32,426 nucleotides of DNA, from positions 1 through 32,426 of the IMG/VR virus record IMGVR_UViG_3300006077_000018. One strand, written 5' to 3'. Shown piece after piece: positions 1 through 31,185 of this stretch. The stretch's first letter is position 1. Every line of letters begins with the position of its first letter. The translations under genes and the position numbers were made by a program. The DNA comes from a virus. The notes beneath the pieces were generated by a model. That model was not told the origin of the DNA. It was given only the letters and a program-made list of their open reading frames with translations, and made no database searches.

Positions 1-1446
1 AAAGCAGGTAAAGATAGATACAGCGATAATAGTAATGTTTGGCTCATAATGGAGCAAAGTTTCCATAAAGATAATAAGTATAGAAAAACTATTGAAGCAT
101 TAAAAGCATTTGATAGTATTTATGTACTTAGAGATGAGTACTCTAAAGCATCTAGTGGAAAAAGACATAAAGAGATTATTAGCTTTTTAGACCCAGTAAA
201 AACTATAGGATTTGATGCTACACCTATAGATAGTCTAACTAGAGCTGTTATTCAAAAAGAAAATATAAAACAGTTCTATTCAGTAGAAAAGGCTATTGAC
301 AATGGATATTGGAAGAAACCAGTATATATTATTCCTAAAGCATCTAAAGAGCTTAATTTAGATGAAGTTAAAACTACATCAATGGGAGATTTTGATACAT
401 CAGAATTAAGTGAAAAAATGCAAAATATTATATTTATATCATCAATTCTAAAAGGTATTAAAGATAAGTTTGGAACTGATAAAAAATGGATTATCTACTG
501 TGTTGATATAGCTCACGCAGAAATGGTAACTAATTTAGTTAAAGAGATATTAACAGATAAAGTAGGAGTGGTTCACTCAAAGAAGAGTACAGCAAAAAAT
601 GAATTAACTATTGAAGCATTTAAATCAGATGGACCAATAGTAAATAGTCTAAGAGATAATTTATTTGATGAAGAAAAAGATTTAGAGGTTAATGTATTAG
701 TATCTGTAATGAGCTTAACAATAGGCTTCGATGCTCCAATAGCTGATGGAATAATTAACTTTAGACCAACTAATATACTTAAGTTATGGCATCAATTTGG
801 CTCACGTGCAAATACACCATACAAAGGTAAAGATACAGCATATATTATTGATGCAGGATTATGTAGTGTTAGATTAGGTTTCCTTGAAGAGCCACTATTA
901 ATGCTAGAGCCAGATACTAGCACTAGAGAGGCAAAAAAGGCTCTTAAATCGTTAAATAAAGAGTCTATAATCAATTATACTGACTCATATGATAAAGAGC
1001 TTAAATTCGAAAATATAGAGTTATTAGAGCAGACTTATCTAAAAGAGAAAGATAATATCTATAATAAGTCTTTTGATAAGTTATTGAAGCTATATGATGC
1101 AGAAACAGAACTTGAAAGAATAATAGAGATTGCATATGCTATTTGGTTCTATCTTGAAAAAGGTTATTTACTAAAGCAGAAACATAATAGTGTAGATTGG
1201 ATTTTAGATGGTATTAATGAAGCAATCAAAGAAGCAGAGGAAGATGGATTTGAAGTACATATAGATAGATTAACCTCATCTATTAAAAAGAGAACCAAGA
1301 ACATCATTAAACAAGGCAAAAAGATAGCATCATTAAGATACTTTGCAGATTGGCTCTTAAATGAGTCAAAAATGAAATTTATCTATAAAACTAGAGCTAA
1401 AGATGAAGATACAGATGAATATTTTGATGCAGAAGTACCATACTAG
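1..1446 (+). CDS. Superfamily II DNA helicase, C-terminal part (5' end outside window)
   Basis: The frame is open from base 1, so the first ATG at 49 is internal and the gene begins outside the window; the Walker A motif is not present here. Helicase features seen: a DEY motif-II-like stretch near 130-145, a motif-III-like GFDATP at nt 208-225, a motif-V-like block ending IGFDAP (nt 694-738), and a motif-VI-like HQFGSRA with the arginine codon at 805-807, followed by GKDTAYIIDAG. That order is typical of the RecA-like domain 2 of SF2 (DEAD/DEAH-like) helicases of phages. The last ~170 residues are charged and helical and not recognised. Likely role: unwinding DNA in phage replication or recombination. 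It is followed after 35 nt by a promoter-like spacer. Assignment to SF2 is firm; the exact substrate is unknown. Confidence 0.8.
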   Translation, partial: KAGKDRYSDNSNVWLIMEQSFHKDNKYRKTIEALKAFDSIYVLRDEYSKASSGKRHKEIISFLDPVKTIGFDATPIDSLTRAVIQKENIKQFYSVEKAIDNGYWKKPVYIIPKASKELNLDEVKTTSMGDFDTSELSEKMQNIIFISSILKGIKDKFGTDKKWIIYCVDIAHAEMVTNLVKEILTDKVGVVHSKKSTAKNELTIEAFKSDGPIVNSLRDNLFDEEKDLEVNVLVSVMSLTIGFDAPIADGIINFRPTNILKLWHQFGSRANTPYKGKDTAYIIDAGLCSVRLGFLEEPLLMLEPDTSTREAKKALKSLNKESIINYTDSYDKELKFENIELLEQTYLKEKDNIYNKSFDKLLKLYDAETELERIIEIAYAIWFYLEKGYLLKQKHNSVDWILDGINEAIKEAEEDGFEVHIDRLTSSIKKRTKNIIKQGKKIASLRYFADWLLNESKMKFIYKTRAKDEDTDEYFDAEVPY

Positions 1447-1478
1447 GTTCTATTTGTATAAATTAATTTAAAGGAATA
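1446..1478 (+). promoter_or_regulatory. Promoter-like element, copy 1, plus RBS
   Basis: The spacer after the helicase stop contains GGTTCTATTTGTATAAATTA, with a -10-like TATAAA at 1457-1462 directly preceded by a T-run and TG. AAAGGAATAAAA then leads into the ATG at 1482. Nearly the same block lies before the SSB-like gene (6527-6568). The conserved arrangement (GGTTCT, T-rich tract, TGTATAAATTAA, AAAGGA) suggests a promoter recognised by the host sigma-70 or a phage factor. No -35 box is obvious, as is common in Campylobacterota. Confidence 0.45.
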
Positions 1479-1481
1479 AAA

Positions 1482-2126
1482 ATGAGTTATTTTTCAAGTA
1501 AAGAGAAGAAAGGAACAAGAGTTTGGAGTTTTCAATATGGCTGGGGAACAATAGAAGATGTTGTTGATGCAGGAGCTATTGATGAAAGTATAATTTCGAG
1601 TGGATTGGTACTAAAAGTAAAATTTGATAATAAACAATACGACACTAGCATTTTTTATTATACATTAGATGGAGTTATGTTTGAAACCTATGAGAACCAA
1701 ACACTATTCTATGATGAAGTAAAATATGAAATACCTAAAAAACCAAATGTTGAACTAACAGATGGAGAATATCTAATCTGTTTAAATGACAATATAGCAA
1801 GCAATGATAAACATTTTAAAAGTTCTAGAGTAGGTAATTTTTCTATAGAAAATGGACTATTTAGAAATGATAAAATAACAGTAAAACTTGCATTAAAGCA
1901 AATAAAAAAGTTTACAAAGTTATTGGCTCTTAGAGATCAAGAATGTGAACTTAGTAGAAATCATATGTTTGAAGAGGGAGAAATCAACTATTATATATCT
2001 TATTCAGATAAATATTCTGTTAAAGGTGAACGATTTAACAATAATCCAACATCAGTATATTTTATTACAGAAGAAGATGCACAAAAAGTTTGTGATATTT
2101 TAAATGAAGGGAGATTTGAATTATGA
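1482..2126 (+). CDS. Hypothetical phage protein, 214 aa
   Basis: No firm family assignment. The N-terminal ~70 residues begin KKGTRVWSFQYGWGTIEDV and continue VKFDNKQYDTSIFYYTLDGV. This resembles the small beta-barrel-like 'KG..V..I.YGWG.V' module seen at the start of many hypothetical phage proteins. The C-terminal half (LLALRDQECELSRN, then YYISYSDKYSV and FITEEDAQKVCDILN) matches the layout of another common uncharacterised phage module. No catalytic motif, signal peptide or membrane segment was seen. The start has AAAGGA 7 nt upstream and lies just after a promoter-like block. The stop overlaps the next ATG by 4 nt (ATGA), so translation is probably coupled. Confidence 0.75.
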   Translation: MSYFSSKEKKGTRVWSFQYGWGTIEDVVDAGAIDESIISSGLVLKVKFDNKQYDTSIFYYTLDGVMFETYENQTLFYDEVKYEIPKKPNVELTDGEYLICLNDNIASNDKHFKSSRVGNFSIENGLFRNDKITVKLALKQIKKFTKLLALRDQECELSRNHMFEEGEINYYISYSDKYSVKGERFNNNPTSVYFITEEDAQKVCDILNEGRFEL

Positions 2127-2518
2127 GTAAATATTTAGATTTAGTAAAAGAGATAAAGAACAATCCAGATGATTTGAGTGAGTTTAAGTTTCATATATAT
2201 TGGAACAGAAATGGTGGAGCAAGAATATACAGACACTATACACCAACAAAAATATCAGCAGGTGGATATGGATACGATAGAGGCAGTACAGTATTATCAA
2301 CATTAATTAACGGAGTTATTGGAGAGCAGGATTACAAATATGCATATACTGACGGTGGTTCTGGTAAAAGAACTATAGCTGATGGTATAGGTATTGAAGA
2401 AGTAATTAATACCTTTGAGAAACTAGATGGTTGCTCATTAGATGTTTTATATGGTGCAAAAGATTTTACTGTATATAAAATTAAATTCAATAAAGAACTT
2501 ATTGAAAAGGAGAAATAA
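2123..2518 (+). CDS. Hypothetical protein, 131 aa
   Basis: Small soluble protein with the conserved-looking segment ISAGGYGYDRGSTVLSTLIN around residues 44-63. This resembles a widespread short phage hypothetical family containing GGYGYDK.ST, for which no function is established. There are no cysteine clusters or membrane segments. The start codon overlaps the stop of the upstream gene (ATGA, 4 nt) with GAAGGGAG just upstream. The stop TAA shares its last base with the ATG of the 50-aa gene that follows. It belongs to the same early-type operon as the helicase and primase genes. Confidence 0.75.
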   Translation: MSKYLDLVKEIKNNPDDLSEFKFHIYWNRNGGARIYRHYTPTKISAGGYGYDRGSTVLSTLINGVIGEQDYKYAYTDGGSGKRTIADGIGIEEVINTFEKLDGCSLDVLYGAKDFTVYKIKFNKELIEKEK

Positions 2519-2670
2519 TGGATTTAGCAAAAGCATATGAGATAGCCGTATTAGACGGTTATCGAACTGGAAAAGATTTTAAAGAGTATTTAAAAGCAAG
2601 AGCTATTGTGGATAACTCTAACGGAGAAGCAAGAAAAGCTTTCTATAAAAAGTTTTCAGTAGCAAAATAG
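2518..2670 (+). CDS. Small hypothetical protein, 50 aa
   Basis: A short open frame starting MDLAKAYEIAVLDGYRTGKD and ending KKFSVAK. Evidence that it is real: a strong AAAAGGAG site 7 nt before the ATG, a TAATG overlap with the upstream stop, coding-like composition, and it exactly fills the gap between its neighbours. The product would be small, helical and basic near its C-terminus. Function unknown. Confidence 0.65.
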   Translation: MDLAKAYEIAVLDGYRTGKDFKEYLKARAIVDNSNGEARKAFYKKFSVAK

Positions 2671-2679
2671 GAACTAAAT

Positions 2680-3627
2680 ATGGAAGATAAAAAAAGAATA
2701 GATTTACATACACTTAAGTATATAAAATCAAATAACTGGTTCTGGAATATAGCAAAAAACAAGAAGAGGAAGCAAGACAAAAATATAGATTTTCTATTTG
2801 AAAGATTTGAAGAGTTCAAGAAAGATTATGAAGAGATGATTGATGAACTGTTAATCAAAGATAAATATCTAAGACAGTATAAAGAGATATATAGGCTTTA
2901 TAGGAAAGACATATTGTTATATTATACAAATTCTTCTTACTACACGATGTTCTTGAAAGATAAATTAAGATTTAGATTAAAAAAGAATGGAAATAGATAT
3001 AGAAAGATTAAAAATATAACAAATATAATCAATATGTATATTGATGAACTAGAGAATTTGAGAGTAAAACCTATCAAAACAACATTTCTTGTATCTCAAT
3101 CAGAAATAGAGAAAGAGCTTATAAATATTAACAAACTCTATTCAATGAAAAAAGGAGATATACTTGTATTTTATAGATTTTTTAATCATTGTGAAACAAA
3201 AGAAGATGTATTAAGTGCATTTGAGAGATTAGATAGAGTGTATGATGTCGTATATAAAGACTCTAGGGACTCAATGAATAGAAGGTCAGAGAAATCAAAA
3301 GAGCCATTACAAAGATTTTTAAGAAATAGCGGTATAAAAGGCATAAATATAGGTCTACACTATCCACCAAATATAAGAAAGCAGAGAAAAGTATTTTATG
3401 GATATGACAAAAAGTCTTTTCAAAAGAGAGTTATAGTTCTAAAATTTGCTGAAGAGTACTATAACTATATGATAGATGGAAAGATTAGAGAACATATAGA
3501 TTGGTTCTTTAGTATGTTTACTAGAGGTAAGCATTTACAAACAATAAAGGAGTGGAACGATGAAGCTATTGGATATAGTAGGTTCTTTAGTGAAAAATAT
3601 AGAGCATACAACAAAAACAAAAATTGA
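2680..3627 (+). CDS. Basic hypothetical protein, 315 aa
   Basis: The product is rich in Lys, Arg and Tyr, with long charged helices (residues 35-70 FEEFKKDYEEMIDEL) and a basic middle section (KNGNRYRKIKNI). The composition fits a nucleic-acid-binding protein, but no domain or catalytic motif was recognised. The start at 2680 is the first ATG after the 50-aa gene; its RBS (GGAACTAA) is weak, so the start is the least certain part. The last 68 nt overlap the start of the ATPase-primase gene in another frame, an unusually long overlap for this window. Position suggests a replication-related role, by inference only. Confidence 0.65.
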   Translation: MEDKKRIDLHTLKYIKSNNWFWNIAKNKKRKQDKNIDFLFERFEEFKKDYEEMIDELLIKDKYLRQYKEIYRLYRKDILLYYTNSSYYTMFLKDKLRFRLKKNGNRYRKIKNITNIINMYIDELENLRVKPIKTTFLVSQSEIEKELININKLYSMKKGDILVFYRFFNHCETKEDVLSAFERLDRVYDVVYKDSRDSMNRRSEKSKEPLQRFLRNSGIKGINIGLHYPPNIRKQRKVFYGYDKKSFQKRVIVLKFAEEYYNYMIDGKIREHIDWFFSMFTRGKHLQTIKEWNDEAIGYSRFFSEKYRAYNKNKN

Positions 3628-5578
3628 TGAAAATATTGTAATTAATAATTTGTTTTTCTTTATAGGTTCTATACTTGGACTAAAAAGAGTTAAAGTAAAT
3701 GGTAAATTTGCAAACTATTTTGGAATAACATTTGCACCTAGTGGAAGCGGTAAAGATTACTCATTAGATTTAATTGAAAAAACTTTTAAATTTGATTATG
3801 TAGAGATATTAACAGATGATTTTAAAGAGTGTAATCCAGAGCCAATAAGCGGTTCATTCAATGAAGATGGATTTAATGTACCTAATAACTATAAAATACC
3901 ATTACAAGGTACACTAGAGGGTCTATTGGCAGTAAGTCAATTCTTTGATAGAATAAATAAAGGTTCAATAAACCTAGTTGAAACAGAGTTTGGCTCAATT
4001 ATGAATAAAAACATAACAAATACTCTAATCAAGTTATGGCAATCAGGAACATTTGATGGTTCAGTAAATGTTCATAATAAGTACAAACCAGTATATAATG
4101 TACCAAGTAATGTAATACTATTTGGAAGTCCTAGTACATTTGAAAGAGATAGTAATAAACAAGCAGAACTACTTGATATTTTAGAAAGTGGATTAGCTAG
4201 AAGATGCTTCTTTGTAAATAGCAATAACAATAAGATAGAGCATTCAGATGGCAATGAAGATTTAAGATATATAGAGTTATTAAAATATGTATACACTTTT
4301 ATTAGATTGATAGATGACAATAAAGAATTTATAGTAAATAGTGAACTATTAAATGATTATAGAAGTAAACTAATAAACCAATATAATCAAGAGCCAACAG
4401 AGATAAACAGAATCATTGCTAACTCTATAGATAAGATTGAAAGACTATCGGTCATAATAGCCATTATTAATGGAAATGATGAGCCAACAGAAGATGATAT
4501 ATCCTATGCTATTGATTGGGCTAAAAAGTCAAATATGGCTTTGCTAGAAGTGTTTAAACCTAAACAACCATATCTGAAGATATTTGACTATCTAAAGTGG
4601 AAAAAGATTGCTTATAAGACAGAGGTATTAGACGCAATAAATATAAAGTTAAGAAAAACAGAATTAGAGGAGCAGTTAGATTTACTAAAAGATTATGCAT
4701 ACAGAAAGGATTATACATTAACTGTAAGAAATAATAATGTATCAATGAAAGCAATAGAAGATGTTACATTAAAAGAGATTATTGTATCTATTAATCAGGA
4801 GGGCTTAAAAGAAAAAGGTAAAGAAACTAAATCTTTATACATTCCATTCCTTGATGGAGAACGAAGTATAGAAACTTTAGTTAAATCAAATACTGATTGG
4901 TTCTCTTTTATACATTATTCAGGAACAAGAAATCAGAAAAACGCAATACCAGTAGTTAATACAATAGCGTTTGATATAGATGATATGTTAAAGCTTGAAT
5001 TGGCTCAAAATTTATTAATACCATATGCATATATCATTTATACAACTAGAAATCATCAAAAAGAGAAAAATGGTTTTGTAGCTGATAGATACAGAATAAT
5101 TTTACCTCTTAAAAAGGAGTTTAGATATGAAGATGTAAATCATTATAAAGAGTTTGTTAAAAATATAGCATATATATTAGGTATTGAAAATGCAGTTGAT
5201 TATTCAACTGTAGAGCCAAGTAGGTTATGGTATACGAATAGTGAAGCATTAGTCTATACAAATAGAATAAAAGAACTGTTTGATACAACTTTAGCGATAC
5301 CTGATACAAAAGAGCAATTAGCTGTTTCAAACGCTCTAAGAGTAGTAGATACAGCTAACCTAGATAAAAGAATTGATGGTGCTACTAAATGGGCAGTATC
5401 TAATGCTATTACTGGTTCTAGAAATACAATACTATTTAGATATGGAACTATGGTAAAAGATATTACTGGAGATAAGCAAGAAGCTAAAGATATGGTTCTT
5501 TATGTAAATTCTCTTTTATCAGATGCATTGAGTGAAATAGAAATTGAAAAAACAATATTTAAGAGATTGAACAAATGA
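3560..5578 (+). CDS. P-loop ATPase (DUF3987-like) fused to AEP-type primase domain, 672 aa
   Basis: The N-terminal half has a Walker-A-like APSGSGKD at residues 59-66 (Asp where Ser/Thr is usual). Further features resemble DUF3987-type phage ATPase/helicase proteins: ETEFGSIMN, a sensor-like NVILFGSP and GLARRCFF. The C-terminal part has archaeo-eukaryotic primase (AEP) hallmarks: AFDIDD with D472 and D474, TTRNH with H499, RYRIILPL at 511-518, and DYSTVEPSRLW with D547 and R555. A PriCT-like tail (GSRNTILFRYGTMVKD...EIEIEKTIF) follows. Expected role: priming and possibly unwinding DNA at the phage fork. The start at 3560 is supported by AAAGGAG 8 nt upstream, and no other Met occurs early. 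The domain order (ATPase first, AEP last) is the reverse of the usual primase-helicase fusion. Confidence 0.65.
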   Translation: MKLLDIVGSLVKNIEHTTKTKIDENIVINNLFFFIGSILGLKRVKVNGKFANYFGITFAPSGSGKDYSLDLIEKTFKFDYVEILTDDFKECNPEPISGSFNEDGFNVPNNYKIPLQGTLEGLLAVSQFFDRINKGSINLVETEFGSIMNKNITNTLIKLWQSGTFDGSVNVHNKYKPVYNVPSNVILFGSPSTFERDSNKQAELLDILESGLARRCFFVNSNNNKIEHSDGNEDLRYIELLKYVYTFIRLIDDNKEFIVNSELLNDYRSKLINQYNQEPTEINRIIANSIDKIERLSVIIAIINGNDEPTEDDISYAIDWAKKSNMALLEVFKPKQPYLKIFDYLKWKKIAYKTEVLDAINIKLRKTELEEQLDLLKDYAYRKDYTLTVRNNNVSMKAIEDVTLKEIIVSINQEGLKEKGKETKSLYIPFLDGERSIETLVKSNTDWFSFIHYSGTRNQKNAIPVVNTIAFDIDDMLKLELAQNLLIPYAYIIYTTRNHQKEKNGFVADRYRIILPLKKEFRYEDVNHYKEFVKNIAYILGIENAVDYSTVEPSRLWYTNSEALVYTNRIKELFDTTLAIPDTKEQLAVSNALRVVDTANLDKRIDGATKWAVSNAITGSRNTILFRYGTMVKDITGDKQEAKDMVLYVNSLLSDALSEIEIEKTIFKRLNK

Positions 5579-5766
5579 TTTATATGGAAATAGATTTAGA
5601 AATATTCAATAAACCTAAAATATTAATCAAGGAGGTTGAAACAGATAAATTGATAAAAGTCATAAAACCTAAAAGAGAGTTTTTATGGAAAGTAGCTGGA
5701 GATGTTTTGGTTCAAATAACCGAGTATAACAATAAATTAAAAGGAGAAACTAATGAAAATAGTTAA
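5575..5766 (+). CDS. Small hypothetical protein, 63 aa
   Basis: A short acidic/basic mixed protein, mostly predicted strand then helix, with no recognised family. Its ATG overlaps the stop of the primase gene (ATGA). A second ATG at 5584 is an alternative start. Its 3' end overlaps the Sak4-like gene by 14 nt, so it forms a translationally linked bridge between primase and recombinase genes. Function unknown. Confidence 0.55.
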   Translation: MIYMEIDLEIFNKPKILIKEVETDKLIKVIKPKREFLWKVAGDVLVQITEYNNKLKGETNENS

Positions 5767-6457
5767 TTTGAGTGAAGTAGAAAAAGTAGATAGCCTAAAA
5801 GCATTAATCTATGCTAAATCAGGTGCAGGTAAAACTTTTAGTATTAAATCTTTTGCAAAAAGACATAAAGTTTTACTAATCAATATGGAGTCTGGAACTA
5901 ACACTATGAAAGATTTTAGCGATGAAGAGAAAGCTAATATAGATGTAGTTAGCACAAAATCATTAGAAGAAATTAGAGAAATCTATACATATCTTACGTT
6001 GAAAGAACACAATTATAAAACTGTAGTGCTAGATAGTCTATCGGAACTATCAGATATTGTGTTTAATTCAGTTAAATCTGACCCAACATATCAAGACCCT
6101 AAGATGGCTCTAAAGATGTGGGGAGAAATAGCTGAAAAGCAAATAAACATATGTAAATCATTTAGAGACATAAGAGAAATGAATGTTGTATTGCTAGCTC
6201 TTGAAGAACAAACAACAAAAGACTTTAAAGATTATGCACAGCCGTTAATGAATGGTCAAAAGGCTACAAAACGATTAGCATCATTATATGACTTAGTTGG
6301 GAGAATAGAACTAGATGAAGATAACAAAAGAAGTCTGGTTCTTGATAGTACTAATTGTGAAAGTAAAGTTAGAAGTAGACAATTCAACTCATCAGAACCA
6401 ATGACAGTAGATGACCCTCTAGGTTCTCTTTGGGACAAAGGTTATTTGAAAAACTAA
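5753..6457 (+). CDS. Sak4-like RecA-fold ATPase (phage single-strand annealing/recombination), 234 aa
   Basis: Walker A is AKSGAGKT at residues 21-28 and Walker B is KTVVLDS ending at D94, followed by a Ser/Glu-rich segment. The arrangement (short N-terminus, NMESGTNTM after strand 2, then LALEEQTTKD) is that of the phage AAA_24/Sak4 group. These are minimal RecA cores that assist annealing of single-stranded DNA together with an SSB. The start has AAAAGGAG 7 nt upstream. The SSB-like gene, the Cas4/RecB-like nuclease and the RusA-like resolvase follow directly, which supports a recombination module. It is terminated by a hairpin at 6514-6536. Confidence in the fold is high; the precise biochemical role is inferred from the family. 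Confidence 0.75.
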   Translation: MKIVNLSEVEKVDSLKALIYAKSGAGKTFSIKSFAKRHKVLLINMESGTNTMKDFSDEEKANIDVVSTKSLEEIREIYTYLTLKEHNYKTVVLDSLSELSDIVFNSVKSDPTYQDPKMALKMWGEIAEKQINICKSFRDIREMNVVLLALEEQTTKDFKDYAQPLMNGQKATKRLASLYDLVGRIELDEDNKRSLVLDSTNCESKVRSRQFNSSEPMTVDDPLGSLWDKGYLKN

Positions 6458-6513
6458 TCAATATGTGGTTGTAAGAGGTTGGGAATTTATTGGTTAGCTA
6501 AGCAATAGAGGTT
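6458..6513 (+). promoter_or_regulatory. Intergenic spacer with 16-bp dyad at 6490-6505
   Basis: The gap between the Sak4-like and SSB-like genes begins with ~55 nt without a credible ORF. It holds TTGGTTAGCTAAGCAA at 6490-6505, a dyad symmetric in 14 of 16 positions. Its location ~30 nt upstream of the promoter-like copy 2 would suit an operator. In AT-rich DNA a chance dyad is also possible. Confidence 0.3.
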
Positions 6514-6536
6514 AAAGAACTTTTTTGGTTCTTTTT
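6514..6536 (+). terminator. Probable rho-independent terminator after the Sak4-like gene
   Basis: AAAGAAC (6514-6520) can pair with GTTCTTT (6528-6534) around a 7-nt T-rich loop, and the RNA then continues in U. The stem is only 7 bp with two G-C pairs, so termination may be partial. The T-run is shared with the T-rich segment of the next promoter-like element. Confidence 0.5.
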
Positions 6537-6565
6537 GTATAAATTAAATTAAATTAAAAGGATAA
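6527..6565 (+). promoter_or_regulatory. Promoter-like element, copy 2, plus RBS
   Basis: GGTTCTTTTTGTATAAATTA starts at 6527 with TATAAA at 6538-6543, preceded by TTTTTG. It is followed by a repeated AAATT stretch and AAAAGGATAAACA before the ATG at 6569. It matches copy 1 at 1446 almost base for base over the first 20 nt. It would restart transcription after the terminator so that the SSB is expressed independently and strongly. Confidence 0.45.
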
Positions 6566-6568
6566 ACA

Positions 6569-7231
6569 ATGTTTGATGTAAAATTAGATGAGAGTATGTT
6601 AAATGAAGTAAAGAGTGCTGATATTAAAGAGTATTTAAAACCATCAGGTTTAAGATATATAAGAATTAGTGAAGCATATGGTGATAAATCACTAGGTGGA
6701 GCAAATTTTATTCGTATTAACTTTGATGCAAAAGCAACTGATGAAGAGATTAAGGACAATGCAGAATTAGCTAATAATGGTATAAAAGGTAGTTTTAACC
6801 TATATATCTCTAGTGGTGATGATAAAGGCAACAAGACAACTTTTACTGATAAAAGTGGTAGAGAAAGACCATTACCTGCTTGGGGTCAATTAAAATCAAT
6901 CTTAGAAGCTTGTGGTGTTAATAAAGACCTAAATACATTTATTGCAAGTGGAATTGATGGTGTAATCGAAATTGGCTCTGAAAAGAAAAAAGTTAAAATA
7001 TTCCAAGATTTAATTGGTAAAGAATGCTATCTTGGATTAGTGCAGAAAAATGATGATTATGGTAACTTAGAACTTAAATGTGCTTGTAGTATAGATACTC
7101 AAAAAGATGAGCTAGATAAAAAAGCTAAAGCATTAGATAAAGCACAGGAAAAAGAGAACAAAAAAGAACCTGCATCTACTAAAACTGAAGCTAAGAAAGA
7201 AGAGGTTGAAAAGCAAACTAGCGGTTGGTAA
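6569..7231 (+). CDS. Probable single-stranded-DNA-binding protein, 220 aa
   Basis: Residues ~20-170 look like an OB-fold-type beta-rich domain (YIRISEAYG, ANFIRINFDAKA, GSFNLYISSGDDKGN, KVKIFQDLIGKECYLGL). A long low-complexity Lys/Glu-rich linker follows (~175-215) and the protein ends SGW. A compact OB domain plus a charged tail ending in an aromatic residue is what phage SSBs look like, although the tail here is basic-mixed rather than the classic acidic tip. Support also comes from the neighbours: Sak4-like ATPase upstream, nuclease and RusA-like resolvase downstream. It has its own promoter-like block and RBS (AAAAGGAT). The stop codon lies in the loop of a strong hairpin (7217-7242). 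No sequence signature is decisive, so the function is inferred. Confidence 0.5.
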   Translation: MFDVKLDESMLNEVKSADIKEYLKPSGLRYIRISEAYGDKSLGGANFIRINFDAKATDEEIKDNAELANNGIKGSFNLYISSGDDKGNKTTFTDKSGRERPLPAWGQLKSILEACGVNKDLNTFIASGIDGVIEIGSEKKKVKIFQDLIGKECYLGLVQKNDDYGNLELKCACSIDTQKDELDKKAKALDKAQEKENKKEPASTKTEAKKEEVEKQTSGW

Positions 7232-10118: not shown

Positions 10119-10121
10119 ATT

Positions 10122-23981: not shown

Positions 23982-23995
23982 ACTATTTTAGCTAT

Positions 23996-24316: not shown

Positions 24317-24417
24317 ATAAATATCCTTTTTTTTTATACTGTTTGTAGTTTATATTGGTAATGATAAAGATTTTTTATTAAAGTAAGTTTATTAATGAAG
24401 TAAATAATTTAGTAAGT
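24317..24417 (-). promoter_or_regulatory. AT-rich spacer with possible promoter upstream of the 106-aa gene
   Basis: About 100 nt without an ORF. On the minus strand, after the hairpin, the sequence is AT-rich and has CAGTATAAA followed by nine A and GGAT before the ATG. The TATAAA (complement of 24332-24337) could be a -10, but it lies very close to the SD. CCAATATAAACT further upstream is another candidate. No stronger site was seen. Confidence 0.3.
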
Positions 24418-24441
24418 GTAATTGGCAAGAGAGCCAATTAC
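24418..24441 (-). terminator. 9-bp hairpin at the end of the capsid gene pair
   Basis: GTAATTGGC (24418-24426), 6-nt loop, GCCAATTAC (24433-24441): a perfect 9-bp stem overlapping the stop codon of the 93-aa gene on the minus strand. One arm and the loop contain a GAGCCAA motif. No clean U-tract follows on the minus strand, so it may be a leaky terminator or a 3'-end stabiliser that sets the capsid mRNA apart from downstream genes. Confidence 0.55.
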
Positions 24442-24719
24442 TTATCAGTAGACTGGTCTTTAAGAGCCAATACTACTGGTGCTGAACCAAGTTGGTTTCT
24501 AGGTTCTACTAAGAACCAATCATAGTTTGTATCTGCTGTAGCAGACTCATTTGGTTCTAATTCAATCTTTTCATCTAGTTTAAGCTCATTAGTTTCAGAG
24601 TCATATGGAGCAATAACCATCTTTGTACTAAATCCATTTTTAACTTTACCAGATGTGCTTTCAAAATTTCCAAGATGTGTACCAAATACACCATAATTTT
24701 TAATTGTTGCTTCTGCCAT
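24438..24719 (-). CDS. Small hypothetical capsid-adjacent protein, 93 aa
   Basis: Acidic, probably all-beta protein (NYGVFGTHLGNFESTSGKV, KMVIAPYDSETNEL, KIELEPNESATADTNYDWFLVEP). It is immediately downstream of the major capsid gene (11-nt gap, AAAAGGATAGATA as RBS), the usual place for a decoration or head-stabilising protein. Size fits such a role, but no family match is claimed. A hairpin at its 3' end probably delimits the capsid transcript. Confidence 0.55.
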   Translation of the reverse strand: MAEATIKNYGVFGTHLGNFESTSGKVKNGFSTKMVIAPYDSETNELKLDEKIELEPNESATADTNYDWFLVEPRNQLGSAPVVLALKDQSTDK

Positions 24720-24730
24720 TATCTATCCTT

Positions 24731-25801
24731 TTACAGTTTAATATTTGCTACTACTCTAGCCATTCTCTCTGGATACAATACTGTACCACCTATAGTAGCT
24801 TTCCAACCTACAGAGCCAATTCTGTTTAGTGGGTCATTACCATTTTCACCAAGAGCTTTAACAATAAAGTTTACTCTACCTGCACCTCTAACACCAATGT
24901 TTGCTGAATGGTCTTGACCAAAGATAAACATTTCGCAAGTATATTCACCAGCATTGTCTTCATCAGGTTTAAGTACTGCATTAGGAGTTGTATATACTGC
25001 TACTCCACCGATATAACCAATTAACTGCATATAAATGTCATATTCAGTTGATTTACCAGTCTCTTCTATAGCAACAAAATCAGGGTTAGCTCTTAAAGCT
25101 TCCTCTGCTGAAGTATGAATTAGTGCAGAATAAACCGACTTAATAGGTGTAGTACCGTAGTTAGGTGAAGAGCTTATAATCCATCTAGTTGGTTTAGCAC
25201 CTTGCAGTTGCATACTTCTAACAGCTTTTCTAATTTGAGCAGTAAAGTTAGAGCTATTAACTACTCTTTTTGTTGCTGTACCATCTGAAATATCAAAGTT
25301 TTGAGTTGCACCAAGACTTAATGTATCTCTGTGAAAGCCATCGATAACCATAGAAGCAACTTCGCTCATCTGTGATACCTCTTCAGTTACAGTCCATTTG
25401 TCATCATATTTTTTGATTTCTTCAGTATGAGATTTCCACATACCAATATCAATAATGTTAGCTTCTTTTTGAACTAGCTTCATATCACCTTTTTCATCAC
25501 CTGAACTTCCCTCTGGTAATACGAAAGACTCCCAAGCTTGTTGTGGCACATTGATAATTAAATCGCTATCTTCTGTTCTCCCCTCCACAAATTGCTCATT
25601 AATGTTATTTGTAAACATCAATAAAGACATCGGAACCCATCTATCAAATCTAACCTTTGTTCCACTATTAGCTGGAATTTTTTTATTGATAGTAAACCAT
25701 CTGTCAAATACTGTTGATTGTGCAATATTTGTTAGCATTTTCTTATCTGCATAAACCTGCATCTCTCTTCCGAGAGTGTTACCGCCATTGAATCTAAACA
25801 T
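24731..25801 (-). CDS. Major capsid protein, N4-gp56 family, 356 aa
   Basis: The N-terminus NTLGREMQVYADKKMLTNIAQ, the following TVFDRWFTINKKIPANSG and KVRFDRWVPM, and above all the C-terminal NRIGSVGWKATIGGTVLYPERMARV are characteristic of the N4-gp56-type capsid proteins (HK97 fold). The middle has a receptor-independent beta domain (GDEKGDMKLVQKEANIIDIG). Length is within the family range (~300-420). It forms the icosahedral head shell together with the scaffold-like product encoded just upstream. The RBS is AAAGGATATATAT. The 105-nt AT-rich gap upstream may hold a promoter for high expression. Confidence 0.88.
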   Translation of the reverse strand: MFRFNGGNTLGREMQVYADKKMLTNIAQSTVFDRWFTINKKIPANSGTKVRFDRWVPMSLLMFTNNINEQFVEGRTEDSDLIINVPQQAWESFVLPEGSSGDEKGDMKLVQKEANIIDIGMWKSHTEEIKKYDDKWTVTEEVSQMSEVASMVIDGFHRDTLSLGATQNFDISDGTATKRVVNSSNFTAQIRKAVRSMQLQGAKPTRWIISSSPNYGTTPIKSVYSALIHTSAEEALRANPDFVAIEETGKSTEYDIYMQLIGYIGGVAVYTTPNAVLKPDEDNAGEYTCEMFIFGQDHSANIGVRGAGRVNFIVKALGENGNDPLNRIGSVGWKATIGGTVLYPERMARVVANIKL

Positions 25802-25906
25802 ATATATATCCTTTGTTGATTTTGTTTATTTTTTTTGTGATTAAATAATAATATAAGATGAAATAAAAAGTAGTATTCGTTTTTAGTATTTTATATCTCT
25901 AAGAGG
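25802..25906 (-). promoter_or_regulatory. AT-rich gap upstream of the capsid gene
   Basis: No ORF. On the minus strand it contains TCTTATATTATTATTTAATC, with several TATATT/TATTAT hexamers usable as a -10, then a purine tract and the RBS. A short GAGGT-TAA-ACCTC inverted repeat (25903-25915) overlaps the scaffold stop. Its stem is only 5 bp and no U-run follows. Confidence 0.3.
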
Positions 25907-26866
25907 TTAAACCTCCATAGAGTTCCATAAATCTTCATAACTTGTAGCAGTATCTTTAACATTAGTCCCTGAAGAGTCATTATTTTTATTAGTAGATGTA
26001 TCTTTTGGTTCATCATTCTCTTTGTTTATATTGTCTGAACCTTTTGTTAATACTTCAAATGCCTTACCATACGCTTCAATCCAGCTATCGTATCCATTGA
26101 TAGCTTTAAGCTCTATTGCCTTTTGATAAACTGGTTGAAAAATACCATTAGAAACATCTTCTACAAATGCATCAAATATATTTGGGTCAGATACTTCTTT
26201 CTTGAAGTCATCAGGTATAGTTGAAAATGTACTCATAGTAGCATTAAACACTTCGGTGTTTGCTTCTTTTAGTTTTTCCACTTTATATTCAATACTATTA
26301 GGGTCTAAAACTTTAGGTTTATATTCATCTTCTTCATTATCTTTACTTTTATTGTTATCATCTTCTGAACCAAAGAAATCAAATTCATCATTATCTTTAG
26401 AGCCAATGTCTATACCTAGCTTATCAAGTATATATTTTTTAGCCTTTTCATTTCCACTCTTTGCATCTTTGATTGCAACTAATAAATCTTTATCAATTCC
26501 TTTTGTTAAATCAATTAATGTTTCATCTATAGGTGAGGTTTCTTGTTTTATTTTATATTCATATCCAGCATCTAATAACTCTTGTAGTTTTTCAGGGGAT
26601 AACTCTTTTTCCTCTCCAGCAATAGTAACATTAATCAATTCATCATTTGAATTATTTGTGTTATTTTCTGTTTTACTATCTTCAGTAGGTTTTGTTTCAT
26701 CTTTTGTACTGTCATCTTTAATATCTGTTTTGTTATCTTTTTCACCTAACAACTCATCATCACTTTTGCTCCATAACTCTTCATATGTTGGCTCACTATC
26801 TGTTTTACTCTCATCAGTTTTGTTTTCATTACCATTATCTTGTTTGAACATATCGAAAATTCCCAT
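25907..26866 (-). CDS. Scaffold-like protein, 319 aa, with YE(E/D)LW motif at both ends
   Basis: Very acidic and low in complexity (DESKTDSEPT, DNKTDIKDDSTKDETK, DDNNKSKDNEEDEYK), with helical stretches and no cysteine. This is typical of capsid assembly scaffolds, and it lies directly before the major capsid gene with a portal upstream. The pentamer YEELW occurs at residues 28-32 and YEDLW at 310-314, near the two termini, each preceded by Thr/Ser. It may be a repeated contact peptide. A mid-domain (EKELSPEKLQELLDAGYEYK, 83-105) resembles the helical region of phage scaffolds. The RBS AAAAGGATAATTAAT is clear. Protease processing cannot be judged. Confidence 0.65.
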   Translation of the reverse strand: MGIFDMFKQDNGNENKTDESKTDSEPTYEELWSKSDDELLGEKDNKTDIKDDSTKDETKPTEDSKTENNTNNSNDELINVTIAGEEKELSPEKLQELLDAGYEYKIKQETSPIDETLIDLTKGIDKDLLVAIKDAKSGNEKAKKYILDKLGIDIGSKDNDEFDFFGSEDDNNKSKDNEEDEYKPKVLDPNSIEYKVEKLKEANTEVFNATMSTFSTIPDDFKKEVSDPNIFDAFVEDVSNGIFQPVYQKAIELKAINGYDSWIEAYGKAFEVLTKGSDNINKENDEPKDTSTNKNNDSSGTNVKDTATSYEDLWNSMEV

Positions 26867-26879
26867 ATTAATTATCCTT

Positions 26880-27092
26880 TTAATTGTTTTGTTTTATTGT
26901 ATTAATAGTTTCTTTAAATCTATTTAAGAAATCAGCAAATTCCTGTCTAGCTATAATTGCTTTTCTAGTACTGTCATCATCTATATTACCATTCAAAGCA
27001 ATATCTTTTATTTCATCTACATAGTGTTGAAATAGAGCCAATACAGGCTCTGTAGCATCTCTACTTATTATCGTTCTTACTATCTTTTCCAT
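26880..27092 (-). CDS. Small helical hypothetical protein, 70 aa
   Basis: Fully helical (TEPVLALFQHYVDEIKDIALNG, STRKAIIARQEFADFLNRFKETINTIKQ). It starts inside the end of the portal gene (32-nt overlap) and ends 13 nt before the scaffold start. A short helical protein between portal and scaffold is common in podoviruses, but its function is unsettled; an accessory to portal or scaffold assembly is a guess from position. The ATG is preceded on the minus strand by GGAGACGATAATGGA, giving a usable GGAG. Confidence 0.6.
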   Translation of the reverse strand: MEKIVRTIISRDATEPVLALFQHYVDEIKDIALNGNIDDDSTRKAIIARQEFADFLNRFKETINTIKQNN

Positions 27093-29052
27093 TATCGTCT
27101 CCCTCTGCTATTTCTTTACTTTCTTTTGCAACTTCCATATATTTCTTACTAACATTTGGCTCTATAGAAGCGTGAGCCTCTTTAGCTTTAGCATTAGTAA
27201 GTTCAGTTCTTGCCATAGCATTTTGAGCCAATGCTTGTTCTTTTTGAGCTTTAGCTTGTTCACCTTGCATCTGTATTTGCATAGCTTGTTCTTGCATAGG
27301 GTTACCTTGTGGCTTATCTCTTTTAATTATTTGAGCCAATGTATGTTCACCTAGTAAATCTGCTAATTCTATAACTAATTGCTTAGTAGCTTCTGAACCT
27401 ATTACATTATTTGACATTAATGGTCCTATTTGTTGAGCTAACATTAATAGATTTTGTATCTTAATTTGCTCTGCACCTTTTGAAGATACTTTAATTGTAA
27501 TATCGTATTTATCGTATTTATCATTAAACATATTTTCAAGTTCATATGCAATAATAGTTTTAGCACCCTCTTTTACATCTTCAGGTAATTCATCTATTCC
27601 ATAGAAGTTGCTAAGTTTTTTATATTCAATCTTTTTAAGTTGTTCTATATTAATTCTAGTTATCTCTTTAATATCCTCATCTGTATAATACTTGTTAAAT
27701 AATTGAACCCATATAGTAAATACTTGCTTTAAGCTATCAGTTAAATTACTCATAGCATCATCAAGTCGTATTTGGCTCTGATGCATTAATGAAGCATAAT
27801 TACTAGCAGGGGCTTTTATATCGTTAGAACCAACACCTAGCATATGAGAACTAATACCAGTAGTTTCGCTTGCATCACCATTAAATTTGTCCATAAGTGC
27901 AAATACACTTTGTGGTAAAGGAGTAAAGTTGCCTTGCTGAATAACATTATGTAGATTATCTCTTGTATTTATCTCAACTATAGGGTTACCAGCTAAAAAT
28001 TTACTCATAGCATTTTTATCAAGTGTATTTTTTTTAATAAAAGTCATACCAAAGTTTGACCTAGCAAGATTATCCTTGATAGCTTTTTTAATCTTAGCTA
28101 CATCTTTGTCTTCTTCTTCTATAGCCCAATATAGAGATTTACCAATAATTTTATTATCTATATCGTATAGCTTTCCTATTGTAATAGGTATTGTACTTAT
28201 TGGCAATGCATCTTTGTTTGAATTTACTAATCTAAAGTTTCCACCATCAACACTAGCTAGATAATGTATATCTACATTGTTTTTACTGTTAAGCCTATAG
28301 TATTTTAATACTTTATATCGTGCATCTATATTTTCATTAGAACCATACTCTATATCTAAATCTTTTTTCATAGATTTTATTTTTTTAATTTCTCTTGAAT
28401 TAAATAATCCTAGAGTTTCTATTTCAGATATTGTATATTTGTATTCAATTATGAACCATTGTAATGGCTCTGTAATTTTAGCAGTTGCATCAAACACTAC
28501 ATCATCAATAGAATAGCTATACATAAAAGGTCTATTGATTATTTTCTTAACTTCATATATAGTCATAGTGTTTTTCTTTTTGTCGATAACTACTTCTATA
28601 TTTTTTTTATTTTCTCTAACTCTTTCTATTAATTGGATATTATATGGAGCATCTTTTACTATTTCATTTTTGATACTCTTGTATTTCCAACCAGTTTCTA
28701 CAAAAAGGTTACCGTGTATATAATTTGATACACAATCTCTAATTACTTGTAGTCCCTTGACCTCTCTTTTGAAAATGCTATTAATTAGTTTCTCATTTAT
28801 GCTTGCTCTATACTTAGCAGATGCATTATCAGAGTCTAAACTAACTATCTTATTTCTATTGCTGAATGGGCTTCTTAAATTAGCTATTAAAGCCAATGCT
28901 TGTTTCTTGTAGATTGAAGTTAGTTTTTTGTTATTATTGCTATCTTTATTAGCTAGTATCTCTTTCTCTTCTGCAACATATTGTCTATACTCAATTATAC
29001 TGGATATATTATCATTATATCTATCGTGTACCTCTTGTTCTAATTCGTTCAT
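27061..29052 (-). CDS. Portal protein, podovirus (P22/N4-like) type, 663 aa
   Basis: The layout matches phage portal proteins. An N-terminal clip/wing region has RSPFSNRNKIVSLDSDNASAKYR and RDCVSNYIHGNLFVETGWKYKS. A middle has SIDDVVFDATA and KVLKYYRLN. The core region SETTGISSHMLGVGSNDIKAP and SNYASLMHQSQIRLDDAMSN comes before the stem helices. A long Gln/Ala/Lys-rich C-terminal helix (MQEQAMQIQMQGEQ..., ~590-640) resembles the barrel-forming tail of P22-type portals. Twelve copies would form the DNA channel at one head vertex and dock the terminase and tail. The RBS is AAAAAGGATTTAGCAT. The gene order portal-scaffold-capsid supports the call. Confidence 0.75.
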   Translation of the reverse strand: MNELEQEVHDRYNDNISSIIEYRQYVAEEKEILANKDSNNNKKLTSIYKKQALALIANLRSPFSNRNKIVSLDSDNASAKYRASINEKLINSIFKREVKGLQVIRDCVSNYIHGNLFVETGWKYKSIKNEIVKDAPYNIQLIERVRENKKNIEVVIDKKKNTMTIYEVKKIINRPFMYSYSIDDVVFDATAKITEPLQWFIIEYKYTISEIETLGLFNSREIKKIKSMKKDLDIEYGSNENIDARYKVLKYYRLNSKNNVDIHYLASVDGGNFRLVNSNKDALPISTIPITIGKLYDIDNKIIGKSLYWAIEEEDKDVAKIKKAIKDNLARSNFGMTFIKKNTLDKNAMSKFLAGNPIVEINTRDNLHNVIQQGNFTPLPQSVFALMDKFNGDASETTGISSHMLGVGSNDIKAPASNYASLMHQSQIRLDDAMSNLTDSLKQVFTIWVQLFNKYYTDEDIKEITRINIEQLKKIEYKKLSNFYGIDELPEDVKEGAKTIIAYELENMFNDKYDKYDITIKVSSKGAEQIKIQNLLMLAQQIGPLMSNNVIGSEATKQLVIELADLLGEHTLAQIIKRDKPQGNPMQEQAMQIQMQGEQAKAQKEQALAQNAMARTELTNAKAKEAHASIEPNVSKKYMEVAKESKEIAEGDDNGKDSKNDNK

Positions 29053-29074
29053 ATGCTAAATCCTTTTTTTTTAT

Positions 29075-30751
29075 TTAGATTTTAGCATAGAAAGCATCAG
29101 CTGTACTTGAAATAGAGTGTACTGAACTGTAGGCTATATCGAAAGGATTATGTAGCATATTGTATGAGTCGTTAAATAATTCTTCAGGTGGTGGTAAAAT
29201 ATATGAGTTCTCTTTAGATTTATCGTACTCTTCTTGATATTTCTTCATCTCTTTATTTAGTTCATTAACATCATCTTTTTTTAATCCAAGTTTATAATCG
29301 TAATACTCATTTAATAGAAAACCACTAAATTTCATTATCTGGTTTACATCAGTAAAAATACTACCTACACTAGACATAGTATTTGCCATTGATACAACCA
29401 TTAGTATGACACTAAAAATAGTAGATAATTCAGGGGCAAACTGATTTATAGCTACACCTAAAGAGCCAACTATCAATGTAGTAAGTCCAGCTCCTGCTCC
29501 TCCAGTAGCATATGTAATTAATGCACTAACAGCTACCATAAGTAATTGTCCCCACCAAGTTTGATACCATTTTAAATGTATTTTTTGAGTTACTGATACA
29601 AACATAGATAGATAATCTCTATATGCTCTATATTTATCTTTAAGATTTAATTTCTGTAGAGTTTCTATAGGTATTATATAAAATGGATTTTCGTTATCGT
29701 ATTCATATTTACCTTTGTAATCTCCATTGTTATACATTTTTATTGTATGCTTATCTGCATCACTACCAACTTCAATATAGTATTCTATCTTTACATTGTG
29801 TCCATCATAGTTTGAATTTATAGTTACAGTTTTTCCTATATCATCATCAAAGTAATATGGTTTTACTTTGTCATATATAAACTCATCGCTAGATGCTTTC
29901 ATAGCATATGTAACTATCATATTCTTAATATCAGAATTACTGTAAGTATCGTTTAAGTCAGAACCACCATCTTTTAAATCTCTACCTATACCAAACTTAT
30001 TTAATATAAAAAAGTTATTATCTGCTTCTCCAGCACTATCTATCTTTATAGGTAGTATAAGTACATCTTTCTCTTCAAGCATTGGTTTTAAATCTTCTTC
30101 AGGAATAAATATACTATCTTCATTGCTATCTTTATTGTATTTGGCATAATATATATGTCTATCATCTATATACCATTGTAGTTTATTCTCATCTGTATCA
30201 TCATCTATATTTACTAACTTTATATATCTAATATTTGTATCTTCATCATCATAATACATAAAGCTATTATCTTGAACAACTACAGTATAGTTATTGTTAT
30301 CTATTGTAATATAGCCTAATCCTAGCTCCTCTACATATGTATTACCATTACAACTTATTTCCATATTTATAGAAGAGTTAGAGCCATCTATGTAGCTATC
30401 TTGGCTCTTAAAGAAGTCATATAATAGATAGTTTAGTCTACTATTATCTTCTAAATTTCTGTAGCATATTAAATCATCTATAGAGCCAACTTCGTCTTCT
30501 ATAGCTTCTTGTATAACTGTTTCATCTACAGTCTCTATTTTCATACTACTATCTGCTAATAAGCCTTTGTTTTTGAATAAGTTTTTATTGAAGAATACTG
30601 TAGCATCATCTATTGCTTTATCAAAAGATGCATTAAGATTTCCATTAGTTGCACCATCTAAATATAATAATTTAGCAATAAACATATCGTGTTCTCTCTT
30701 CTGTAGAAAAGAAGCAGATACACCTTTAACTGTTTTTGTTGAACTACCCAT
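29075..30751 (-). CDS. Structural protein with central hydrophobic hairpin, 558 aa
   Basis: The first ~380 residues are acidic and beta-rich (YITIDNNNYTVVVQDNSFMYYDDED, YYAKYNKDSNEDSIF). Around 398-468 lie several strongly hydrophobic, Gly/Ala-rich segments: WWGQLLMVAVSALITYATGG, AGLTTLIVGSLGVAI, LSTIFSVILMVVSM. These could form a membrane-inserting helical hairpin, and a charged helical tail follows. Such a segment in a virion gene cluster suggests a tail or internal protein that enters the host membrane during ejection. No family was recognised. The ATG shares a base with the stop of the preceding 144-aa gene (TAATG). The stop lies 23 nt before the portal start. Confidence 0.6.
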   Translation of the reverse strand: MGSSTKTVKGVSASFLQKREHDMFIAKLLYLDGATNGNLNASFDKAIDDATVFFNKNLFKNKGLLADSSMKIETVDETVIQEAIEDEVGSIDDLICYRNLEDNSRLNYLLYDFFKSQDSYIDGSNSSINMEISCNGNTYVEELGLGYITIDNNNYTVVVQDNSFMYYDDEDTNIRYIKLVNIDDDTDENKLQWYIDDRHIYYAKYNKDSNEDSIFIPEEDLKPMLEEKDVLILPIKIDSAGEADNNFFILNKFGIGRDLKDGGSDLNDTYSNSDIKNMIVTYAMKASSDEFIYDKVKPYYFDDDIGKTVTINSNYDGHNVKIEYYIEVGSDADKHTIKMYNNGDYKGKYEYDNENPFYIIPIETLQKLNLKDKYRAYRDYLSMFVSVTQKIHLKWYQTWWGQLLMVAVSALITYATGGAGAGLTTLIVGSLGVAINQFAPELSTIFSVILMVVSMANTMSSVGSIFTDVNQIMKFSGFLLNEYYDYKLGLKKDDVNELNKEMKKYQEEYDKSKENSYILPPPEELFNDSYNMLHNPFDIAYSSVHSISSTADAFYAKI

Positions 30752-31185
30752 TATTTTTTAAACCTATATAAGTAAACTATTTTATCTTTATCTTTGTAGT
30801 ATATTTCAAATTTAAGCATTTGTAATATTTTATTTCCTTTTTCGTGCCAAGAAGATGCAGTAGCTTCTAATGGAAAATGTTTACATACTTTATTTGATTT
30901 AAGTAATTTTACTAACATACCAACATATTTAAAGTTATACTTCTCTATTAAATCATTAGTTGTAAATAAACTAACTTTATTATCTTTATGATATAGGACT
31001 ATTCCAATCTTATGTTTATAATGTTTGATGTGATAAAAGATTGTATCTCTTGCATTACAAGCTTTTATATACTCTTTTATATTTAAACCAGTAAGCTCAA
31101 TACACTCTTTTATATCATCTTCTTTAAAATCAAAATTATCAATAAGAGCCATCAACTGGCTCTTTGTTATTTTAATTAATTTCAT
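30751..31185 (-). CDS. T7 gp13-like (GNAT-fold-like) small virion protein, 144 aa
   Basis: The central part HKIGIVLYHKDNKVSLFTTNDLIEKYNF, followed by a helix and FPLEATASSWHEKGNKILQMLKFEIYY, resembles the pattern of podoviral gp13-type proteins, which are related to the GNAT acetyltransferase fold (strand, strand with LFTT, helix, then 'A...H.KG.K.L..LGF'). The acetyl-CoA-binding motif (Q/RxxGxG/A) was not seen, so catalysis is unlikely. In T7 this protein is needed for correct assembly of the internal core. Size matches (~140 aa). Both ends overlap neighbours by TAATG. A GAGCCA-paired hairpin lies at codons 8-14. Confidence 0.45.
   Translation of the reverse strand: MKLIKITKSQLMALIDNFDFKEDDIKECIELTGLNIKEYIKACNARDTIFYHIKHYKHKIGIVLYHKDNKVSLFTTNDLIEKYNFKYVGMLVKLLKSNKVCKHFPLEATASSWHEKGNKILQMLKFEIYYKDKDKIVYLYRFKK
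31144..31164 (-). promoter_or_regulatory. 8-bp hairpin within the start of the 144-aa gene
   Basis: AAGAGCCA (31144-31151), loop TCAAC, TGGCTCTT (31157-31164): a perfect 8-bp stem, nt 22-42 of the gene, encoding KSQLMAL. It is made of the same paired GAGCCA/TGGCTC motif as the terminators at 13537 and 14300, but lies inside a coding region. Possible attenuator or pause site; chance pairing of a frequent motif is an alternative. Confidence 0.4.

Follow-up and report, generated by a model that had tools for sequence, protein, structure and literature searches.

The virus record IMGVR_UViG_3300006077_000018 of IMG/VR (positions 1 to 32,426, a stretch of 32,426 nucleotides hereafter called the window) was strongly enriched in the heptamer TTGGCTC and its close variants, which belonged to a word family over-represented in most of the N4-like phage genomes compared. 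The refined motif, TTGGYTCW, is probably the word that the phage's own primase-helicase (3560-5578) recognizes on its template; from its sequence, this enzyme is predicted to be of the archaeo-eukaryotic primase (AEP) type. A plausible extension, held more tentatively, is a lineage-specific primase code, in which each N4-like primase-helicase would read its own 6-7-nt word of the form [CT]TGG[CT]T[CT] (possibly CTAGTTC in Alteromonas phage AD45-P1), its genome having been rewritten to two to five copies per kb with a strand bias set by the main fork direction. The primase reading was favored because of the likeness of the motif to the recognition site of the NrS-1 phage PrimPol, the AEP sequence motifs of the enzyme, a modest fold match, the co-variation of the last base of the word with the primase tree, and the one-strand enrichment of the T7 primase site in its own genome.

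Strong over-representation, with 45 heptamers and 65 copies of the hexamer TGGCTC/GAGCCA, had been proposed in the initial annotation. The recount gave exactly 45 copies of TTGGCTC/GAGCCAA (22 plus, 23 minus) and 66 of the hexamer in 32,426 bases (28 plus, 38 minus), spread over positions 40-31162. Only 2.2 and 2.8 heptamers were expected under order-1 and order-2 Markov models, respectively, and TTGGCTC ranked as the top heptamer under both. In a maximal-order model, the inner pentamer GGCTC already held the excess (70 vs 23.5), and longer words added no top-listed excess. The variant TTGGTTC was enriched as well (31 vs 6.8 under the Markov model; 30 vs 11.7-12.8 within open reading frames (ORFs) under codon shuffles). 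Copies of both heptamers, by start position, were as follows:

TTGGCTC, plus strand, 22 copies (span 39..30407): 39, 797, 1350, 1923, 3990, 5000, 6972, 10234, 10746, 11757, 13547, 14024, 15871, 16782, 17396, 19142, 20729, 22059, 26788, 27156, 27772, 30401
TTGGCTC as GAGCCAA, minus strand, 23 copies (span 3839..30489): 3839, 4391, 4481, 5213, 8578, 11790, 12328, 14587, 16633, 17062, 18106, 18977, 19048, 21392, 24431, 24464, 24813, 26400, 27035, 27225, 27333, 29463, 30483
TTGGTTC, plus strand, 15 copies (span 1143..26011): 1143, 3501, 4897, 5707, 6525, 7611, 8500, 9115, 11927, 14548, 17758, 20285, 22760, 24551, 26005
TTGGTTC as GAACCAA, minus strand, 16 copies (span 1292..27833): 1292, 1694, 6395, 9952, 10449, 10654, 12840, 13485, 17959, 20183, 21130, 23690, 24484, 24513, 26367, 27827

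Selection acts on the DNA word and not on protein or codon usage, as had been argued earlier from frame independence. Within ORFs, 42 copies of TTGGCTC were present, against 5.2 in synonymous-codon shuffles (maximum 11 in 300) and 6.8 in shuffles also keeping the first base of the next codon (maximum 15 in 300); the enrichment survived the codon-preserving shuffle set beforehand as the refuting test. Three copies lay outside the shuffle-test ORFs (39, 13547, 24431), the one at 39 falling in the open helicase frame. In a second ORF set, the first two heptamers under the codon-shuffle null were TGGCTCT (43 vs 7.4) and TTGGCTC (41 vs 7.1), and TGGCTC was the top hexamer of the window under this null (60 vs 14). 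All six frames were occupied, in line with the claim that all codon frames and both orientations were used, although unevenly (frames 0/1/2: sense 10/13/2, antisense 11/1/5). A coding-strand bias of 28 vs 17 copies, also claimed at first, came to 25 vs 17 on recount and was not significant (binomial P=0.28). Within ORFs, TTGGYTC was in similar excess on the plus (34 vs 10.4) and the minus (37 vs 8.3) strand.

The base following TTGGCTC was T in 32, A in 12, C in 1 and G in 0 of the 45 copies. Since position 8 was T or A in 44/45 and TTGGTTC was in excess, the motif is TTGGYTCW; the Y of the formerly suggested TTGGYTCT was thus retained and its terminal T replaced by W. Flanks of the motif copies were unrelated to each other, and no regular spacing of copies was found in the window (coefficient of variation 0.87 vs 0.97 for random placement, P=0.23). 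Another word, GAAGATG/CATCTTC, was also over-represented in the window (28 vs 5.7, order-2 Markov) and stood outside the top five words after codon shuffling.

The same word family was found in N4-like phages. Fifteen named genomes (50 kb of each) were chosen for diversity, mostly from match lists; 13 are classed as Schitoviridae in their records, Alteromonas phages PT11-V19 and AD45-P1 being the two others. Under the codon-shuffle null, the top hexamer was part of [CT]TGG[CT]T[CT] in the window and in 10/15 of these genomes (10/13 of the record-classed Schitoviridae), which differed in hosts and GC content; under an order-3 Markov null, the family came top in the window and in 7/15. The ten phages and their top hexamers (observed vs codon-shuffle expectation) were:

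N4: TGGTTC, 136 vs 50
EcP1: TGGTTC, 126 vs 47
Ab09: TGGCTT, 137 vs 48
SP-076: TTGGTT, 122 vs 52
RHph_Y2_6: TGGTTC, 102 vs 44
Pokken: TGGTTC, 111 vs 50
VCO139: TTGGTT, 208 vs 91
nACB1: TGGTTT, 109 vs 51
Axy12: TTGGTT, 84 vs 29
BUCT194: TTGGTT, 170 vs 75

Viral loci selected by primase relatedness displayed the same trend. Scanning viral contigs with a primase alignment returned at least 304 relatives; when the best 80 loci (1.04 Mb) were pooled, Markov models of orders 2 and 3 both ranked TGGTTT first and TGGCTT second among over-represented hexamers. Of 51 IMG/VR loci picked by primase relatedness, each 10 kb or longer, 33 had an NTGG[CT]TN heptamer in the top 20 and 21 in the top 5, against 3 and 2 among 46 control viral loci; with near-copies removed, the figures were 22/38 and 15/38 against 3/45 and 2/45. 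Control loci came from a scan of viral contigs for a hairpin pattern, so that each was chosen for carrying one motif hairpin, which biases the comparison against a contrast between primase-selected and control loci. Among the matches listed in this hairpin scan, the best-ranked loci held at most 6 TTGGCTC in 10.8 kb. The word family was outside the top five hexamers in T7 and in 50 kb of Escherichia coli under the codon-shuffle null, although in T7 the family motif was mildly over-represented (ratio 1.34, z 2.8).

Strand bias was apparent in the relatives. Nine of the ten enriched genomes, all of the same layout, were pooled, leaving out nACB1 (stored in the opposite orientation, and mixed when taken alone); minus and plus denote genomic strands, either of which may be the lagging-strand template. 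Pooled sites numbered 914 on the minus and 642 on the plus strand, with 397 and 363 expected (2.30- vs 1.77-fold), a difference with P=2.9e-7 if sites are independent. The minus strand was enriched 2.30-fold in the forward-gene arm and 2.31-fold in the backward-gene arm (plus strand: 1.72- and 1.83-fold), so that the bias follows the genome strand rather than transcription. All nine genomes leaned to minus, RHph_Y2_6 barely, and across the 5-kb bins flanking the convergent junction the raw minus share stayed between 0.54 and 0.68. In phage pYD6-A, enrichment was confined to the minus strand (42 vs 25.3, 0/100 shuffles; plus 23 vs 26.9), and its first heptamer was still TTGGTTT (28 vs 12). RG-2014 was weakly minus-enriched (50 vs 40.1, 4/100 shuffles; plus 30 vs 32.4), and no minus-strand enrichment was found in VBP47. 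Forks of phage T7 mostly run rightward, so that its plus strand is the lagging-strand template. For the primase site of T7, given as (G/T)2GTC in PMC12839067, enrichment in its own genome was restricted to the plus strand (162 vs 129, 0/300 shuffles; minus 183 vs 190).

The proposed reader of the motif, its parts and the two alternative candidate readers were located as follows:

3560..5578, plus strand: primase-helicase of 672 amino acids (aa), N4 gp43 type (PHROG 2135 DNA primase, E 1.3e-56), proposed motif reader
3560..4561, plus strand: N-terminal helicase part of the primase-helicase, residues 1-334, AAA+/MCM-like fold in the model (Z about 16)
4865..5329, plus strand: predicted AEP catalytic domain, residues about 436-590, motifs D472xD474, H499 and D547
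5309..5575, plus strand: C-terminal helix bundle of the primase, residues about 584-672, weak PriCT_1 match at 618-666 (E 0.039)
5753..6457, plus strand: Sak4-like single-stranded DNA (ssDNA) annealing protein (PHROG 124), alternative candidate motif reader
6569..7231, plus strand: single-strand DNA binding protein (SSB; PHROG 743), alternative candidate motif reader

The window primase matched PHROG 2135 over residues 132-671 of 672 and was a diverged member of the N4 gp43 family, with 24-28% identity to its aligned relatives. Across the window primase and 48 relatives, D472 and D547 were invariant, D474 and H499 nearly so; we take these residues to be the AEP catalytic motifs DxD, H and D. 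The N-terminal half modeled as an AAA+/MCM-like helicase, and because a fold search with the whole model returned the helicase part alone, the C-terminal part was folded separately (pLDDT, the predicted local distance difference test score, 80.5). This model aligned best with the S-2L PrimPol (Z 6.5, root-mean-square deviation (rmsd) 4.0, 123 residues), the other top-five matches being the LigD polymerase domain (Z 5.8) and Prim-PolC (Z 5.5-5.7), all with Z under 8; the best Foldseek match was a RepB' primase (E 0.008). The NrS-1 polymerase was not among the fold matches listed for this model, and searching the Protein Data Bank by sequence with a five-primase profile gave nothing useful. The helix bundle was confident in the model and matched residues 295-367 of AsfvPrimPol (Z 4.7, rmsd 2.6, 65 residues). 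By analogy with the helix-bundle domain of PrimPol enzymes, it is the proposed sequence-reading domain. In PMC8718748, the NrS-1 phage PrimPol is described as recognizing 5'-TTTGGTTA-3', and binding of the recognition site is reported for its helix-bundle domain.

The last base of the word co-varied with the primase tree. Fixed z thresholds were used to type 50 primase-bearing loci (the window, 14 named phages and 35 IMG/VR loci) as C (TGGYTC) or T (TGGYTT), which yielded 20 T, 8 C, 2 both and 20 none. Twenty-six of the 28 typed loci carried all four genes compared, the window falling outside for want of an exonuclease match. In quick trees of these 26 loci, built without support values, the primase tree accounted for the last base with a single change, whereas the exonuclease tree required 2 and those of Sak4 and SSB required 3 apiece; shuffled labels required about 6.3. 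On a 50-row primase tree, the four labels clustered (12 changes vs a shuffled mean of 22.7). Trees of the DNA polymerase (9 loci, 2 changes) and the helicase (7 loci, 1 change) held too few loci to be informative.

Several observations weigh against the primase as reader. The gap between primase and exonuclease trees amounts to a single change in trees that carry no support values, and these genes travel together; because of this linked inheritance, the co-variation is supportive and not decisive. As many as 20/50 primase-bearing loci were labeled none, and the C-type window stood among T-type rows of the 50-row tree, although its branch there is very long and its placement uncertain. Five of the 15 named phages (VBP47, RG-2014, pYD6-A, PT11-V19 and AD45-P1) were not significantly enriched overall in the family motif, and at least VBP47, RG-2014, pYD6-A and, more distantly, PT11-V19 encoded a related primase. 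The top hexamer of AD45-P1 was CTAGTT instead (87 vs 39 in ORFs); CTAGTTC was enriched on both strands there and is possibly the same system with one changed base, in a stretch that has no annotated primase. A scan with the window major head protein found four distant viral loci, which were without the word (TTGGYTC 0, 1, 0 and 2 vs 1.0, 1.6, 0.4 and 3.6 expected). In the window alone, the strand bias of the family motif was small and not significant (48 vs 20.6 on the minus and 50 vs 27.2 on the plus strand). The AEP fold match is modest (Z 6.5 over 123 residues) and the PriCT_1 match (residues 618-666) was below cut-off. Among known enzymes, the NrS-1 PrimPol primes better at GTGG, according to PMC8718748; two copies only of its 8-mer occur in the NrS-1 genome, as given in PMC7102993; and the phage AEP GP55 prefers another site, CCAAC, according to PMC12205980. 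Recognition sites thus differ among AEP enzymes, and a genome is not necessarily enriched in the site of its known reader.

Alteromonas phage PT11-V19 displayed another set of words, with CCCGGG at 28 vs 1.9 copies and overlapping words around GTTGATCCTGTTG at 15-17 copies each.

The word could instead be the site of some other phage DNA-binding protein (SSB, nucleoid-like or regulatory) serving compaction, replication control or packaging. SSB (47/50) and Sak4 (48/50) were common to the window and nearly all primase-bearing loci, yet SSB is not known to have 7-nt specificity, and both the strand bias, independent of gene direction, and the C/T co-variation favor a replication enzyme reading single strands; we regard this explanation as unlikely. 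A Chi-like role, raised at the outset, would make the word a recombination or exonuclease-control site that regulates a phage or host recombination nuclease, or that loads the Sak4-type annealing protein, and so protects or recombines phage DNA. Chi sites are likewise frequent, frame-independent and strand-biased, Sak4 and the exonuclease adjoin the primase in N4-like genomes (several with a RusA-type resolvase), and the window itself has Sak4 and RusA-type genes. The C/T changes were nevertheless more numerous on the Sak4, SSB and exonuclease trees than on that of the primase, no gp42-type exonuclease was found in the window with an N4-seeded profile, and the motif resembles a known AEP primase site. 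Enzyme evidence, strand bias and co-variation thus fit a primase site better, and the Chi-like role stays as a rival of low probability.

The initial annotation had also considered a DNA-uptake sequence shared with the host, that is, a host motif acquired by the phage. The density of TTGGCTCW in the phage (1.36 per kb) is comparable to that of uptake sequences, and the five motif-pair hairpins described below are also of a kind with this idea. However, in 249 genomes from the phylum to which a Sulfuricurvum locus belongs (presumably Campylobacterota), drawn evenly from a larger group, TTGGCTCW did not exceed about 0.33 per kb, and in a set of eight genomes it lay at about 0.07-0.17 per kb; neither the 249 genomes nor the 7 others of this set came near the phage density. 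Pieces of four of the denser genomes (one sampled over 100 kb, the remaining three over 11-56 kb) were near Markov expectation, with no clear excess (38 vs 30, 5 vs 2.5, 20 vs 17 and 9 vs 10.5). In a 50-kb stretch of E. coli, the host of N4, the family motif was not enriched under the codon-shuffle null, while phages of unrelated hosts share the word. In none of the genomes tested does the word qualify as a host uptake sequence, and we consider this origin very improbable. Less credible still is a compositional or coding artefact through dipeptides, codon pairs or repeats: sense copies did favor frames 0 and 1, but shuffles keeping protein, codon usage and next base gave 6.8 against 42 copies, by which the coding artefact is refuted, antisense copies were also in excess, and flanks were unrelated. 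Promoters of the N4 virion RNA polymerase were set aside as a candidate because the word lies through genes in both orientations.

Two further searches bear on genomes of cells. A GTDB scan for three close direct copies was rejected as a lead: isolated copies among the matches listed were below expectation (104 vs 144), and tandem repeats probably dominate the direct-copy matches. The window portal gave two weak matches in 397 genomes of the same phylum, whose short loci held 1 and 0 TTGGCTC.

Under the primase reading, the primase-helicase would travel with the replication fork, whose passage would leave the motif single-stranded in the lagging-strand template. There the helix bundle may read TTGGYTCW, and the AEP domain may start a primer beside it. 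Selection for frequent start points would have spread the word over both strands and all codon frames. TTGGCTC occurred once per about 1.4-1.5 kb per strand, or once per about 0.85 kb with TTGGTTC included. This spacing is of the order of T7 Okazaki fragments, given as 1-6 kb in PMC12839067.

Paired copies of the motif also formed hairpins, as the initial annotation had noted. Five GA[AG]CCA...TGG[CT]TC pairs with a gap of at most 15 were present, intergenic ones included, against 1.5 expected under random placement (P=0.0175), and no pairs in the opposite order with short gaps occurred in the window. These hairpins look like a secondary use of an abundant word, and the one at 14300-14316 is probably a co-opted terminator. 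They were located, on no particular strand, at:

13538..13553: motif-pair hairpin, intergenic
14300..14316: facing-motif hairpin GAGCCA-loop-TGGCTC between the convergent gene arms, fold energy -11.1 (plus strand) and -21.8 (minus strand), A/T-rich flanks
28453..28470: motif-pair hairpin within a gene, GAACCA...TGGCTC
30381..30407: motif-pair inverted repeat within a gene
31146..31162: motif-pair hairpin within a gene

The virus record harbored an N4-type DNA primase (PHROG 2135), Sak4, SSB, a RusA-type resolvase, the thymidylate synthase ThyX, the major head protein and the portal. Gene order resembled that of N4 (forward helicase, primase, Sak4, SSB and RusA; reverse giant protein, major head protein and portal), with replication genes facing structural genes in a Schitoviridae-like layout. 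Because the helicase reading frame (1-1446, plus strand) is still open where the contig begins, the record is probably a fragment truncated on the left. N4-seeded searches of the window found no N4-type DNA polymerase. A 2507-aa protein without PHROG or Pfam match (14307-21830, minus strand) lies at the place of the N4 virion RNA polymerase and may be a shortened or very diverged version of it, or a replacement. Beside the convergent junction, a MUG113/T5orf172-domain protein (13739-14275, plus strand) is presumably of the GIY-YIG nuclease type. Among the phage records searched, ThyX (10122-10817, plus strand) was closest to Campylobacter phages (43.7% identity), a similarity that is only a hint of a Campylobacterota host. 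Single-protein scans with the window portal and with ThyX found no viral relatives.

N4 is a classical phage, and among the papers listed in searches of open-licence PubMed Central literature there was no report of the word, of an N4 gp43 recognition site, or of the start words of N4 and its family. If the primase reading is true, the site would be unusually long for a primase and would change between lineages, and primase specificity, its evolution, and the polarity and main direction of forks would be readable from genome sequence alone. Each primase would then prefer the word of its own genome, for example TTGGCTCT, CTGGTTC or TTGGTTT. Similar words in other phages could reveal further primase specificities, and a phage word resembling an uptake sequence or Chi may be neither.

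Compared with known systems, the window primase belongs to the N4 gp43 family, and the gene order of the window matches that of N4. Chi sites and DNA-uptake sequences, like the window word, are frequent, short, frame-independent and present on both strands, but they are features of host genomes, whereas the window word belongs to phages and the tested hosts do not carry it. T7 gp4 is also a phage primase with a short template site enriched on one strand of its own genome; it is a TOPRIM/zinc-type primase, unlike the predicted AEP type of the window. Its site is 5 nt long and was enriched 1.26-fold, on one strand; in the window, the family motif was enriched about 2-fold and TTGGCTC 6-fold. The NrS-1 PrimPol (PMC8718748, PMC7102993) belongs to the AEP superfamily and combines a catalytic domain with a helix bundle and a helicase part, as is predicted for the window primase, and its phage has an Epsilonproteobacteria host, a further possible likeness. 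It differs in that its helicase is C-terminal (N-terminal in the window primase), and in being a replicative polymerase that also uses GTG and has two genomic copies of its 8-mer. The NrS-1 site TTTGGTTA and the window motif nonetheless share TTGGTT.

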